DNA from: Runella defluvii
Lineage (GTDB): Bacteria > Bacteroidota > Bacteroidia > Cytophagales > Spirosomataceae
NCBI RefSeq assembly: GCF_014195535.1
Contig: NZ_JACIBY010000012.1
Span: 1 to 64,000 of the forward strand
Reading direction: 5' to 3'
DNA: 64,000 nt
A program made the position numbers and the translations under genes. Under the pieces are notes generated by a model. It searched no databases and was not told the origin of the DNA. It saw only the letters and a list, made by a program, of their open reading frames with translations. Shown here one piece after another: positions 985-5,940 of the stretch. Within the stretch, counting starts at the first letter, position 1; every line of letters begins with the position of its first letter.

Positions 985-1024
985 CGAAAACAAAAATCCC
1001 GCCAGTAAGTTTACAAGCGGGATT
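985..1024 (-). terminator. Hairpin with minus-strand T tract
   Basis: AATCCCGC (995-1002) pairs with GCGGGATT (1017-1024). The A-rich stretch 985-996 makes this a terminator for leftward transcription; on the plus strand no T tract follows. No minus-strand gene was found immediately to its right, so its client is unknown. Confidence 0.45.
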
Positions 1025-1165
1025 GAGACTAATTGTACATAAGAACTTTCGTTCGCATACCTTAACGGACTCATACAGGGTTTATTTTAACATTTGCTTC
1101 ATAAAACCATCACATTAGACAAAATTTCGAGACTTTTGTAATTTGCAGGGGGAAAAAGTGATTTT

Positions 1166-3205
1166 ATGGATTCAAATTATAAATCTTCTGAAAATCAACG
1201 TAATGAATTGATTGAAAGAATTATATCAATTGATAATGCAGAGGCGTGCAGAACTTTTTTTAAGACTCTGCGGGAAATGATTGATGTAACCAATCTTTCA
1301 GAAAATGATACAAAACTAGGTTTCAGTATTCCTGAGGGGAGAAAAGCAATTGTTGCTAACCTTAATTTCTATGTTGCCTTCGAGATTTATTCAGTTAAAA
1401 ATCAAGTTTCATTTTCTTTGATTTTTCGTAAGTCCGATAGAGAGCGAGTAGAGTTAGTTGATAAAATCAAGATTGAAGATACTCTAGCCAAATCATCCCC
1501 GTATTTATTTGGTACTATTAGTTTTGAAAATTCCCATTTACTACAAAACCCAATTATTCTTGACTATTGGCAAAAGTGTCTTTTGGAGGTTCGGGAGGAT
1601 GCAAAATCTAGCTTAAGGCATGGATGGCACAACCCGATCGTTTATAAAGCTGCTATGGATGATGGTTTTCGTGAGGAAATTTTTGCAACGGTTTTAAAGA
1701 AACAGAAACATAAATATTGGGTTTGCCATTCTAATCCAGACTACTTTGATGGTTCCGCGGAAATCGCTGAACAAGAGTTTATTGATTTTGAATTTCAAGA
1801 AAAATTTCAAAATGTGGTTAATGTCGGCGATAAAGTGTTGTTTTGGATTTCAGGCAAAAATGCTGGTGTGTATGGTATAGGCGAAATTTGGGAAGCTCCG
1901 TACAAACGATTGATGAAGGGGCAAGGAATGAACTACGCTAAGGACTCTAATTCCGTTCATAAATTTAATGTAGAAAGGTTAAGGGCATTTATCAAGGTTG
2001 TTGGTCGATTATCAGACTCACCCATTTTAAGGGAAAAAATCTTAGCAGAGGAGGAATTATCAAAAGTTAGAGTTTTTGTTAATCCTCAAGGAGTTACAAA
2101 TTCTGAAATTACGGAAGCTCAATTCAATAGAGTGCTAAGTTTGACGAAGCAATCTTTTGTTTTTTCGGAGCCTAAGGAAACTTATAGTGTACCCAAAGTG
2201 ATAAACCGCCCCGCCATTCCCCTCAATTACATTTACTACGGAGCGCCAGGGACGGGGAAAACCTACGAAGTGCAGCGGTTGTGTCAGTTGTATGCACATA
2301 AGATAGTGACGTTTCATCAATCGTTTGGTTATGAGGAGTTTGTAGAAGGGATTCGACCCGAAACAATTGGTGATAAAATCACGTATAAAGTTCGGAAAGG
2401 CGTTTTTTACGAAGCATGTTTGGAGGCATTGCGGGCTGCCGATTACCAAAGTTTTGAAGGCTGTATTGCTGACACCGCCGAGAGCCGTCAAAAACGATTT
2501 GCTCAGGCGCCTGTTGTACTTATGGTGATGGATGAAATCAATCGTGCCAACGTCTCAAAAGTGCTCGGAGAATTGATTACGCTTATTGAGCCTTCAAAAC
2601 GATTGGGGGCCGCCGATGAGCTTTGGCTTACGTTGCCGTATTCGCAAGAAAAATTTGGGGTGCCTGCCAACTTGTACATTGTCGGGACGATGAATACCGC
2701 CGACCGTTCGATTGCTTTGTTGGACACTGCCTTACGTCGTCGTTTTTATTTTAACGAATGTTTGCCCGATGTGAGTGCCCTTAGCGAAAAGGTGATTGAA
2801 AATACCAATGTGGGGAAGCTTTTGACGACGCTCAACGAACGGATAGAGTTTTTGCATGACCGTGATCACGTCATCGGCCATGCGTATTTTCTGAACATAC
2901 AGACTTTTGAGGAGTTGTGTGAACTGTTTCGTTTTCAGGTGATTCCGCTGCTGCAAGAATATTTTTACGACGATTGGCGAAAAATTCAATTGGTTTTGGG
3001 AGATAATGAAGCATGGGGTAAGCCGCTGGATGCCAAACTCATTCAAACCAAACGACAATATACTGCCAACATGGAACGAGAACTTTTTGGTGAAGACCTC
3101 GACAATGCGGACGCCGTCGTGACGTATCAACTCAATCCGATGCTCACGGAAGGGCGTTTTGGTGAATTACCCCGAGATATGTTCCGCCGAATTTATGAAA
3201 GATAA
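1166..3205 (+). CDS. EVE-domain McrB-like AAA+ GTPase
   Basis: A 679-residue protein with three parts. Residues 1-180 are an uncharacterised domain. Residues about 183-325 look like an EVE (PUA-fold) domain, a family that reads modified bases: KYWVCHSNPDYF at 183-194 and NVGDKVLFWISG around 218-229. Residues 355-679 are an AAA+ motor of the McrB/AAA_5 type: Walker A GAPGTGKT (359-366), Walker B VVLMVMDEINRAN (450-462), the McrB-type signature MNTADRS (509-515), which in E. coli McrB belongs to the GTP site, and an arginine-rich LRRRF after it. In classical type IV restriction McrB works with the nuclease McrC; no McrC is present here. Instead the stop codon overlaps the start of a CoxE-type VWA gene, the arrangement of MoxR-VWA chaperone pairs. 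The first 1 kb is far more AT-rich than the AAA part, suggesting a chimera. Assignment of EVE and McrB-type AAA is confident; the role is open. Confidence 0.85.
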   Translation: MDSNYKSSENQRNELIERIISIDNAEACRTFFKTLREMIDVTNLSENDTKLGFSIPEGRKAIVANLNFYVAFEIYSVKNQVSFSLIFRKSDRERVELVDKIKIEDTLAKSSPYLFGTISFENSHLLQNPIILDYWQKCLLEVREDAKSSLRHGWHNPIVYKAAMDDGFREEIFATVLKKQKHKYWVCHSNPDYFDGSAEIAEQEFIDFEFQEKFQNVVNVGDKVLFWISGKNAGVYGIGEIWEAPYKRLMKGQGMNYAKDSNSVHKFNVERLRAFIKVVGRLSDSPILREKILAEEELSKVRVFVNPQGVTNSEITEAQFNRVLSLTKQSFVFSEPKETYSVPKVINRPAIPLNYIYYGAPGTGKTYEVQRLCQLYAHKIVTFHQSFGYEEFVEGIRPETIGDKITYKVRKGVFYEACLEALRAADYQSFEGCIADTAESRQKRFAQAPVVLMVMDEINRANVSKVLGELITLIEPSKRLGAADELWLTLPYSQEKFGVPANLYIVGTMNTADRSIALLDTALRRRFYFNECLPDVSALSEKVIENTNVGKLLTTLNERIEFLHDRDHVIGHAYFLNIQTFEELCELFRFQVIPLLQEYFYDDWRKIQLVLGDNEAWGKPLDAKLIQTKRQYTANMERELFGEDLDNADAVVTYQLNPMLTEGRFGELPRDMFRRIYER

Positions 3206-4346
3206 CCTCATTCAGCGTCAAGTTGAGCTGTCGGCCCACGTGGTGGCTTTTAGCCGCTTTTTGAGGGGAAAAGGCTTACCCGTTGGTCCTGACCGTGAAG
3301 CCGATGCGCTCAAAGCATTGGCCGAAATTCAGTTGGGAGAGGAAGAACAATTTTACTTGGCAATGCGGAGTGTTTTTCCTCAAAATCGAAAGCAACTACG
3401 CGAATTTGACGAATTATACACAAAGTATTGGAAAGAATTAGCAAAGGCAGTTGATTCGAAAATTAAGGACGAGGCCAAAGAAAGCGAGCAGAAAAAGAAG
3501 AAGCCGAAACAAAATGGAGAAGCGGCTTTTGAGGCGTTGAAAAATTGGCTAAATGGCAATAAACAATCGCAGACGGAAGAGTTGGCGTCGTATAGTTTGG
3601 GAGAACCTCTGACGTTGAAAGATTTTGGTTCTTACACCGACGAAGACCTTCACGAAGCCCGCCGTTTGGTGCGCCAAATGGTACAGCGAATGGCCAAAAC
3701 CATGAGCCGACGGTATGAAATTACCAAAAATGGCGGGCAGTTGGATTTACGGCGAGTGTTACGAAACAATTTTCGGAAAGGTGAAGAAATCATCGATCTT
3801 TTTCACCGAAAACCCGCCCGAAATAAAATCCGTTTGGTATTGCTTTGCGACGTCAGTAAATCAATGGATTTATACAGCCGCTTTTGGGTACAATTTATGT
3901 ATGCTTTTCAAACGTTGTATCAGTCCATCGAAACCTTTGTGTTTAGTACAAAATTGGTACGAATTACGGAGGATTTAAAGGAAATGGATTATACTCAAGC
4001 CCTTGAAAACCTCTCGGAACGCGTTCCCAATTGGTCGGGTGGGACGGATATTGGAACCATGCTGCGGCAATTTGTGGACGAATACGCGATGCGAAAGCTA
4101 AATTCACGGACGATTGTCCTAATTGTCAGCGATGGCATGGATACAGGAGATGGAGAAGATTTGGCCAAAAATATGGAGCGAATTCGGCGAAAGGCGAGGC
4201 GGGTGATTTGGTTAAATCCTTTGGCGGGTTCGCCCGATTTTCGCCCCGAAGTGAAAGCGTTAAAAGCGGTTTTGCCCCATTTAGATTTACACGCTCCTGC
4301 CCACAATTTGGAGAGTTTGAAACGAGTCATTGAGCAATTACGTTAG
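3195..4346 (+). CDS. VWA domain protein, CoxE family
   Basis: A 383-residue protein that I start at ATG 3195, which overlaps the upstream AAA+ stop by 11 bases; an upstream in-frame TTG at 3159 is less likely. The C-terminal half is a von Willebrand A domain with an intact MIDAS: DVSKS at about 219-223, the Thr of GGTD near 284, and SDGMD near 312-316. The N-terminal half is helical and charged, with a Lys/Glu-rich linker around residues 90-110. CoxE/ViaA/NorD/CbbO proteins pair with an AAA+ motor of the MoxR class and act as substrate adaptors in metal-centre assembly or protein remodelling. Here the partner is an EVE-McrB-like GTPase rather than an ordinary MoxR, which makes the pair unusual. 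Translational coupling is strongly suggested by the overlap. Confidence 0.85.
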   Translation: MKDNLIQRQVELSAHVVAFSRFLRGKGLPVGPDREADALKALAEIQLGEEEQFYLAMRSVFPQNRKQLREFDELYTKYWKELAKAVDSKIKDEAKESEQKKKKPKQNGEAAFEALKNWLNGNKQSQTEELASYSLGEPLTLKDFGSYTDEDLHEARRLVRQMVQRMAKTMSRRYEITKNGGQLDLRRVLRNNFRKGEEIIDLFHRKPARNKIRLVLLCDVSKSMDLYSRFWVQFMYAFQTLYQSIETFVFSTKLVRITEDLKEMDYTQALENLSERVPNWSGGTDIGTMLRQFVDEYAMRKLNSRTIVLIVSDGMDTGDGEDLAKNMERIRRKARRVIWLNPLAGSPDFRPEVKALKAVLPHLDLHAPAHNLESLKRVIEQLR

Positions 4347-4361
4347 GAATAAAACTTGAAT

Positions 4362-4604
4362 ATGAAAATAACTGTATTAGCGTTTGGGATTGCCAAGGAG
4401 ATTATTGGCCAACTCGAACTGACCTTACAACTGTCCGAAGAAGCAACGGTGGCAGATTTGAAAAGCCATTTGGTCAGCCAATTTCCCGATTTTCAAAAAC
4501 TGGCTTCCCTGCGCGTAGCTGTCAATACCGACTATGCGGACGATACCCAACTGCTCCATTCCAACGATGAAATTGTACTGATTCCCCCCGTGAGTGGAGG
4601 ATAA
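4362..4604 (+). CDS. moaD: MoaD/ThiS-family beta-grasp protein
   Basis: An 80-residue ubiquitin-fold protein ending in PPVSGG, the C-terminal di-glycine that is adenylated and thiocarboxylated in MoaD and ThiS. ATG 4362 is preferred over a TTG six bases upstream. In molybdopterin synthase MoaD carries the sulfur used by MoaE, but no moaE, moaA, moaC or molybdenum hydroxylase lies in this window. The gene sits 15 bases after the VWA gene, so it is probably in the same operon. CoxE-type genes are known neighbours of molybdenum-hydroxylase maturation genes, which fits MoaD; a role as a protein modifier or sulfur carrier for the EVE-AAA/VWA pair is also possible. The family call is strong, the pathway is inference. 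Confidence 0.8.
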   Translation: MKITVLAFGIAKEIIGQLELTLQLSEEATVADLKSHLVSQFPDFQKLASLRVAVNTDYADDTQLLHSNDEIVLIPPVSGG

Positions 4605-4722
4605 ATTCGTGGTCTTGGTTGCTCACAACCAAGACTTTATTACTTAATTCGTAGTGTTGGTTGCTCATAACCAAGACTTTATTACCTAATTTGTGGTGTT
4701 GGTTGCTCACAACCAACACTTT
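4605..4722. repeat. Three hairpin repeats, TTGCTCACAA family
   Basis: Three tandem units about 43 bases apart, each a near-perfect palindrome around GGTTG-CTCA-CAACC. Examples are 4612-4635 (10-base arms), 4657-4674 and 4696-4719 (10-base arms). Spacers are AT-rich and similar (CTTTATTAC). The same core occurs after the gene ending at 46456. They lie directly after the moaD stop and could act as transcript ends. Confidence 0.8.
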
Positions 4723-4746
4723 ACTTCATAATTTATTAGAAATAAA

Positions 4747-5592
4747 ATGAAACTCATTGAATGTCCGCGCGATGCGATGCAAGGATTAGAAAACTTTGTA
4801 CCGACCGACGCTAAAATAAATTACTTAAATAAACTCCTTCAGGTAGGTTTTGATACGCTTGATTTTGGAAGTTTTGTTTCTCCCAAAGCGATACCTCAGA
4901 TGCGTGACACGGCTGAGGTGGTTGATAAATTAGACTTATCGACTACTTCCACCAAATTGCTAGCCATTGTTGCCAATGTTCGTGGAGCAGAGGATGCAGT
5001 ACCATTTGGGCAAATTCAATATTTGGGTTTTCCGTTGTCGGTTTCAGAAACGTTCCAGCAAAAAAACACGAACAAAACCATTGCAGAGGCTTTTGGCGAA
5101 GTGGCAGAAATTCAGAATCTATGCCAAAAAAAGGGCAAAGAATTGGTGGTTTACCTTTCGATGGGTTTTGGAAACCCCTATGGTGATGCTTACAGTCCCG
5201 AAATCGTGGAGGAGTTTACCGAAAAATTGGTTCAACTAGGGATTAATATCATCGCCCCTTCTGATACGATAGGTTCGAGTACTACCGACGAAATTAAGAC
5301 GTTGTTTGGGCATTTGGTGAAAAAATTCCCAAATGTGGAATTTGGGGCGCATTTGCACGCCAAATCGTCGCACACCCCTAAAAAAGTGAAAGCAGCTTAC
5401 AAAGCTGGCGTTAGACGAATTGACTGTACCGTGCGTGGTTTTGGGGGCTGCCCATTAGCCGATAATAAGCTTGTTGGTAATTTGGCAACTGAGCTGGTAG
5501 TGAGTGAATTAACACAGCTTGGCGTCAATTTGCCCATTGATGACCTAAAACTCGCCCAAGCCATGTTGGCATCTCAATATGTTTTTGGCTAA
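4747..5592 (+). CDS. Hydroxymethylglutaryl-CoA lyase
   Basis: A 281-residue TIM-barrel enzyme of the HMGL-like family, which splits 3-hydroxy-3-methylglutaryl-CoA into acetoacetate and acetyl-CoA, the last step of leucine breakdown. Visible landmarks are the N-terminal ECPRDAMQ (the R-D pair binds substrate and metal), AHLHAK around residue 203 with the metal-binding histidines, and the Gly/Cys loop VRGFGGCPLADN near 228-239, where Cys is the catalytic-loop residue of the family. The length suits HMG-CoA lyase rather than the longer isopropylmalate synthases. No other leucine-degradation gene is adjacent. It is followed directly by a hairpin repeat array. Confidence 0.88.
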   Translation: MKLIECPRDAMQGLENFVPTDAKINYLNKLLQVGFDTLDFGSFVSPKAIPQMRDTAEVVDKLDLSTTSTKLLAIVANVRGAEDAVPFGQIQYLGFPLSVSETFQQKNTNKTIAEAFGEVAEIQNLCQKKGKELVVYLSMGFGNPYGDAYSPEIVEEFTEKLVQLGINIIAPSDTIGSSTTDEIKTLFGHLVKKFPNVEFGAHLHAKSSHTPKKVKAAYKAGVRRIDCTVRGFGGCPLADNKLVGNLATELVVSELTQLGVNLPIDDLKLAQAMLASQYVFG

Positions 5593-5940
5593 ATGTCACA
5601 AATGCGACAAATGTTAAGCTTCTCCGAAGCTGTTTTTCGACAATTCTGCCTCGGAGAGGCGCAACGTTTGTTGTCACAAATGCGACAAATGTTAAGCTTC
5701 TCCGAAGCTGTTTTTCGACAACTCTGCCTCGGAGAGGCACAACGTTTGTTGTTACCAATGTTAAGCTTCTCCGAAGCTGTTTTCGACAATTCTGCCTCGG
5801 AGAGGCACAACGTTTGTTGTGACAAATGTTAAGCTTCACCGAAGCTGTTTTCGACAATTATGCCTCGGAGAGGCACAACGTTTGTAGTCACCAAAGTTAG
5901 TTTTTTTGATATTTTTGCCTCGGAGAGGCACAACCTTTGT
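5593..5940. repeat. Five-copy tandem hairpin repeat array
   Basis: Five units of about 55-80 bases fill the whole gap between HMG-CoA lyase and the DUF2480 gene. Each full unit has a first small hairpin, GCTTC-TCC-GAAGC, then a TTTTCGACAA spacer, then a second hairpin, GCCTC-GGA-GAGGC, then CACAACGTTTGTTG. The first two units also carry TCACAAATGCGACAAA; units three and four are shorter, and the fifth keeps only the second hairpin. No cas genes are near and unit spacing is irregular, so this is not a CRISPR array. Reading frames in both directions across it are by-products of the repeat. Confidence 0.85.

Follow-up and report, generated by a model that had tools for sequence, protein, structure and literature searches.

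A probable split McrBC restriction enzyme with an exchangeable reader module beside molybdenum genes in Runella defluvii

The 64-kb window analysed here, which forms the beginning of contig C12 of the 8.0 Mb Runella defluvii genome, carries a McrB-like AAA+ gene (mcrB) followed by genes for a VWA protein, a MoaD/ThiS-type protein and an HMGL-like lyase, all on the forward strand (Table 1). The locus very probably belongs to a type IV restriction enzyme that is split, composed of McrB and an McrC acting in trans, is inherited for the most part vertically and has exchangeable readers; the molybdenum genes beside it would be unrelated. For the family Spirosomataceae, which includes Runella, it appears reasonably probable that McrB and McrC reside stably at separate addresses and assemble in trans, the reader module (the N-domain with or without EVE) being swapped between species at fixed junctions, so that a fixed motor and nuclease are combined with variable specificity. 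By analogy with the known McrBC family, EVE and perhaps the N-domain would recognise a modified base in DNA entering the cell; McrB, like its E. coli counterpart, would form a hexamer and recruit the McrC made in trans, and GTP-driven translocation would trigger McrC cleavage.

The family survey covered 121 Spirosomataceae genomes, with cut-offs of E<=1e-50 for the McrB query, E<=1e-20 for McrC and E<=1e-60 for CoxD, and the Runella subset searched comprised 13 genomes. Close relatives of the AAA gene were taken as the best 80 of 188 confirmed loci, 66 outside Spirosomataceae by record title and 14 inside; among these 80, the closest named relatives of the window gene are Runella.

McrB and its distant McrC

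The 679-residue AAA protein contains an EVE domain at residues 183-325 (PF01878, E 1.6e-11), also supported by fold comparison, and an AAA_5 domain at residues 358-527 (E 1.2e-14), both from a Pfam scan, with intact motifs comprising Walker A GAPGTGKT at 359, Walker B VMDEINR at 454 and the NxxD signature MNTADRS at 509. In the fold comparison the GTPase domain fits solved McrB structures much better than MoxR, and AAA_3 (MoxR) was unmatched at E<=1 in the Pfam scan, so an identity as MoxR was rejected. The gene likely encodes a McrB-type motor with a predicted modified-base reader; an earlier note on this DNA, which had recognised an EVE-like domain and MNTADRS and had favoured McrB over MoxR, is borne out on these points by fold and profile comparison. 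PADLOC returned distant restriction-enzyme matches for McrB (E 4e-10 and 5e-10), matches of E 7e-4 or worse for the VWA protein and none for MoaD. Relative to the McrBC type IV systems of E. coli K-12 and Thermococcus gammatolerans (6ut5), the Runella McrB has the same AAA+ GTPase fold and motifs and likewise fuses an N-terminal reader to the motor, an arrangement in which EVE is common among the readers according to Bell 2020; VWA, CoxE, MoxR, MoaD and Runella do not occur in the main text of that paper. The N-domain upstream of EVE differs from known McrBC in having no strong match among solved structures in the fold search.

McrC of the source genome lies at G000:C2:377263-378204 (PF10117, E 1e-79), on another contig than mcrB. 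The earlier remark that mcrB has no McrC neighbour therefore holds at the locus but not genome-wide, and absence of McrC was rejected. PF10117 McrC is present in 13/13 Runella genomes and, as in the known systems, carries the D...DxK motif, which is intact in all 31 aligned rows (29 Spirosomataceae genomes, L010, which is the same locus as G006, and E. coli). The seven Runella McrC genes examined have no McrB alongside and are flanked by rimP-nusA and by a pyridine-nucleotide-disulphide oxidoreductase gene, which we read as dihydrolipoamide dehydrogenase, with McrC on the strand opposite to these neighbours; in G122 the contig ends ahead of the second flanking gene. At L010/L221 a McrB sharing 67% identity in the GTPase domain directly adjoins an McrC whose identity to the seven Runella McrC proteins is 46-48% for six of them and 45% for that of G122. 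Since both members of this adjacent pair are related to the Runella genes, the Runella McrB and McrC probably belong together.

The separation extends across the family. The McrB query matches 60 of the 121 genomes and McrC 88, with all 60 McrB genomes within the 88. Measured from the best McrB locus per genome (n=60) to the nearest McrC of any kind, the distance is at most 1 kb in four genomes (G006, G022, G073 and G113), of which the last three have weaker, partial McrB matches that look like another subfamily. It is 3.8-5.2 kb in nine; 25 more have both genes on one contig, 13 kb to 4 Mb apart, and the remaining 22 have them on different contigs. In 56/60 genomes, then, McrB and McrC are separated by 3.8 kb or more or lie on different contigs, the source genome among the latter, whereas mcrB and mcrC of known systems usually share one operon, an arrangement that is not biochemically required. 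Contig breaks might mask some neighbours, but nearly closed genomes show distances of up to megabases. Among the 66 close-relative loci outside Spirosomataceae, McrC lies within 1 kb in 62, is not found in one, and in three the contig ends too early; of the 14 inside, 12 lack McrC in the 8 kb downstream, in one it is 3.8 kb away and in one it is adjacent. Defence genes are usually sought as neighbours, and a McrB with a distant McrC is liable to be called an orphan or credited to the wrong neighbours.

In the McrC tree, drawn with support values not displayed, the sequences from genomes with McrB cluster together, and those of G122 and G013 fall within this cluster. Sixteen genomes with McrC and without this McrB were examined, and in 14 of them McrC stands next to a different McrB. 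The other two are G013, an 82% complete assembly whose lone McrC belongs to the split group, and G060, whose McrC is short and of a different type. Pairwise distances of the McrB GTPase domain correlate with those of McrC at r 0.88 across 26 genomes, compared with 0.66 for the N-domain.

In the open-access literature searched (subscription papers not covered), no report of a split McrBC in Spirosomataceae was found, and the EcoSal 2025 review gave no mention under terms on McrB/McrC separation. Bell 2024 states that the McrB and McrC genes were 'occasionally ... separated by intervening genes'; PMC10634448 describes in Staphylococcus capitis an mcrC for which no mcrB was detected and does not settle what effect this has, and PMC8989522 has a McrBC-like restriction-modification system as its subject.

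Two neighbourhoods recur outside Runella: a GntP permease gene often comes after McrC (12/26 neighbour sets) and a zinc alcohol dehydrogenase gene after McrB (11/32 sets), where the totals of 26 and 32 include Runella and each name is taken from one member. In G003, G015 and G042 (L219, L224 and L233, with L119, L118 and L120), McrC lies 4-6 kb from coxE, a second, looser McrBC-coxE neighbourhood that is possibly due to chance.

Exchange of the reader module

Judged from aligned DNA and protein, the reader module differs as a whole block between close relatives, like an exchanged cassette. Against the R. limosa DNA (L140), identity is 96-100% at window positions 1000-1149, falls to 40-60% at 1150-1400, remains at 24-64% at 2050-2208 and returns to 92-100% at 2209-2383. 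BLASTN gave 93.8% identity over 75-1155 and 90.8% over 2195-5715, with no block between, and the blocks of two other close relatives break off at almost identical positions (1155 and 2189 or 2215). The conserved flanks, together with the lack of a DNA alignment at about 1150-2200, argue that the module has been exchanged, the segment starting just upstream of the mcrB start codon and ending within the first residues of its GTPase domain. At the protein level, identity between the window McrB and that of G095, an R. limosa contig, is 95% for the GTPase domain and 33% for the N-domain; against G111 the two values are 76% and 67%, and EVE is common to both proteins of this second comparison (49%). 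An EVE-length stretch is present in 4/33 aligned McrB sequences, and matches spanning it occur in 5/60 genomes. The G+C fraction of the module is 0.352 against 0.437 for the window, the 11th lowest of 252 same-length stretches, which is low without being extreme.

None of 72,556 plasmid or 50,697 phage records has one place covering 80% of this McrB. As a speculation, the split may uncouple the level of McrC from that of McrB and tie the enzyme to vertical inheritance, the reader being renewed by recombination. Spirosomataceae offer a natural experiment on whether a restriction complex that is not transferable in one piece settles as a core immune enzyme that is stably kept, with module exchange renewing its specificity.

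The VWA and moaD genes

The VWA gene tracks CoxD, not McrB. Its product matches VWA_CoxE (PF05762, E 1.9e-62; Pfam) and has the metal ion-dependent adhesion site DVSKS at residue 219, confirming the intact site noticed earlier. VWA occurs in 33 and CoxD in 30 of the 121 genomes, and all 30 CoxD genomes have VWA; the three VWA genomes without CoxD comprise two assemblies that are 84 and 86% complete and G033, which is 87% complete with a VWA match of only E 1e-3. Outside Runella, 17 of the 23 VWA genomes counted, G033 being set aside, have a CoxD gene no more than 0.5 kb from a VWA gene, and the genes before CoxD/VWA in these loci are often, in our reading, CoxS, CoxL and CoxM. At L127, MoaD and MoaE come after the VWA gene and MoaC is nearby. 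Each of the 11 Runella genomes with VWA also encodes, at another site, a CoxD of 69-72% identity. Both CoxD and the E~1e-80 CoxL class, the latter searched in Runella only, are found in 11/13 Runella and are missing from G103, which has McrB, MoaD and HMGL and neither VWA nor CoxD, and from G122, whose locus holds MoaD and HMGL only.

In Oligotropha carboxidovorans, CoxD and CoxE take part in building the Mo/Cu site of CO dehydrogenase (Pelzmann 2014). Runella resembles this pair in having a VWA_CoxE protein, a CoxD-like MoxR AAA+ protein and a CoxG-S-L-M cluster in the same genome. It differs in that coxE follows mcrB instead of standing beside CoxD or the structural genes: in the source genome CoxD and the CoxG-S-L-M cluster lie on two other contigs, so that cox genes are scattered on three contigs overall. 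The VWA protein would be a CoxE maturing a CO-dehydrogenase-like molybdenum hydroxylase, and MoaD would be the small subunit of molybdopterin synthase. Both genes may share a transcript with mcrB, though by co-occurrence they do not share its function.

The moaD gene begins 15 bases after the VWA stop codon and its product ends in Gly-Gly (ThiS, E 1.1e-14; Pfam), as had been described earlier. Like known MoaD, it belongs to the ThiS family, is the sole match in its genome and has a MoaE partner in the genome, with one MoaE per genome, away from the locus, in 13/13 Runella. It differs from known MoaD in adjoining an HMGL-like lyase gene (in 13/13 Runella examined) instead of moaE, and in scoring 65.7 bits against TIGR01682, 0.45 bits under the cut-off of 66.15. 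A Pfam scan of the five open reading frames between 594 and 5589 found no E1, E2 or protease conjugation domains. A role as protein modifier was rejected as unlikely, given this result, the single copy and the MoaE elsewhere.

The AAA-VWA-MoaD-HMGL order is present in 11/13 Runella genomes, including the source genome, and the arrangement is therefore not chance. The start codon of the VWA gene (ATG 3195) overlaps the AAA stop by 11 bases, making exact the overlap seen earlier. The 11 Runella genomes with both genes show the same overlap in seven cases, a gap of 47-48 bases in two and an inserted gene pair between mcrB and coxE in two, so contact between the genes is dispensable. Both inserted pairs are toxin-antitoxin-like, consisting of DUF433 and DUF5615 at L137:5391-5998 and of a weakly RelB-like protein (below cut-off) and ParE at L142:6165-6609. 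Family-wide, McrB and VWA occur together in 23/121 genomes; in nine Runella they lie within 0.7 kb, and in the other 14 they are separated by more than 168 kb or lie on different contigs. Recurrence of the gene order, proposed in the earlier note as a check, is thus found within Runella but in 0/14 genomes outside it, where the genes are largely not conserved together. The merger that it envisaged, of a reader and GTPase with the VWA protein and a ubiquitin-like carrier, is not supported: VWA follows CoxD, G103 has McrB without VWA and G122 has MoaD-HMGL without both. AAA-VWA-MoaD as one machine was rejected. A tight gene overlap need not imply shared function.

Alternative explanations and features of the window

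It is very improbable, and already largely refuted, that McrB has taken over from the MoxR ATPase CoxD in driving the VWA protein, which would make the two a novel AAA-VWA remodelling machine in which MoaD might serve as carrier. The overlap and conserved order in Runella speak for such a replacement, the weaker fold matches of the AAA domain include MoxR-type NorQ bound to the VWA domain of NorD, and McrB is present in 23/33 VWA genomes, somewhat above expectation (p 0.008, relatedness ignored); yet all 11 VWA-bearing Runella keep CoxD, G103 lacks VWA, CoxD and the CoxL class jointly while retaining McrB, two genomes have a gene pair inserted, and outside Runella the genes are close in none of the 14 genomes with both. 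Hardly less improbable is that McrB does its work independently of McrC, for instance sensing modified DNA or triggering abortive infection, the separate McrC having its own job. The presence of McrC in 60/60 McrB genomes, its intact nuclease motif and the adjacent same-clade pair at L010/L221 argue against this, although the genes are apart in most genomes and McrC stands without McrB in G122 and G013. A domesticated housekeeping enzyme, for example one clearing wrongly modified own DNA and not serving phage defence, is unlikely as well, though the least so of these three. Vertical-looking inheritance, the recurrent GntP permease and zinc alcohol dehydrogenase neighbours and the lack of plasmid or phage records with one place covering 80% of the McrB query agree with it, but the whole-module difference between close relatives looks like an arms race over specificity, and 298 plasmid and 20 phage records contain relatives of the GTPase domain.

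Several observations weigh against a split McrBC enzyme beside unrelated molybdenum genes. The plasmid and phage relatives indicate that McrB as a whole is not immobile, G122 and the incomplete G013 have a split-clade McrC with no McrB found, and the congruent McrB and McrC distances can be explained by shared vertical descent. The interaction of McrB with McrC in trans is one that we infer. McrB and VWA also occur together somewhat above expectation, the frequent 11-base overlap is compatible with some co-regulation, and co-transcription of mcrB and VWA may carry some regulatory meaning.

Table 1. Features of the locus in window coordinates.
Feature	Position	Strand	Remarks
mcrB, likely McrB-type GTPase with exchangeable N-terminal reader module, 679 aa	1166..3205	+	
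McrB N-domain, residues 5-180	1178..1705	+	weakly resembles T4 MotA/YjbR-type domains
EVE domain, residues 183-325, candidate modified-base reader	1712..2140	+	PF01878; absent from most relatives
Segment probably exchanged relative to R. limosa	1150..2208	n/a	junctions near 1150 and 2195-2209; DNA identity and BLASTN
McrB GTPase/AAA+ domain, residues 345-679	2198..3202	+	Walker A 2240-2263, MNTADRS 2690-2710
coxE-type VWA gene, 383 aa, assigned to Mo-hydroxylase maturation, not McrB	3195..4346	+	VWA_CoxE
moaD, 80 aa, Gly-Gly end, only copy found in genome	4362..4604	+	ThiS
HMGL-like lyase gene	4747..5592	+	PF00682 E 5.6e-24

Two repeats accompany these genes. A 42-base tandem repeat of 2.9 copies occupies the moaD-HMGL interval at 4604-4723, starting at the final base of the moaD stop codon. 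Directly after the HMGL gene, at 5606-5940, a 68-base repeat with the core GCCTCGGAGAGGC is present in four to five copies, with five matches in the window; exact 24-base copies occur in 3/271 loci, all three from the same stretch as the window.

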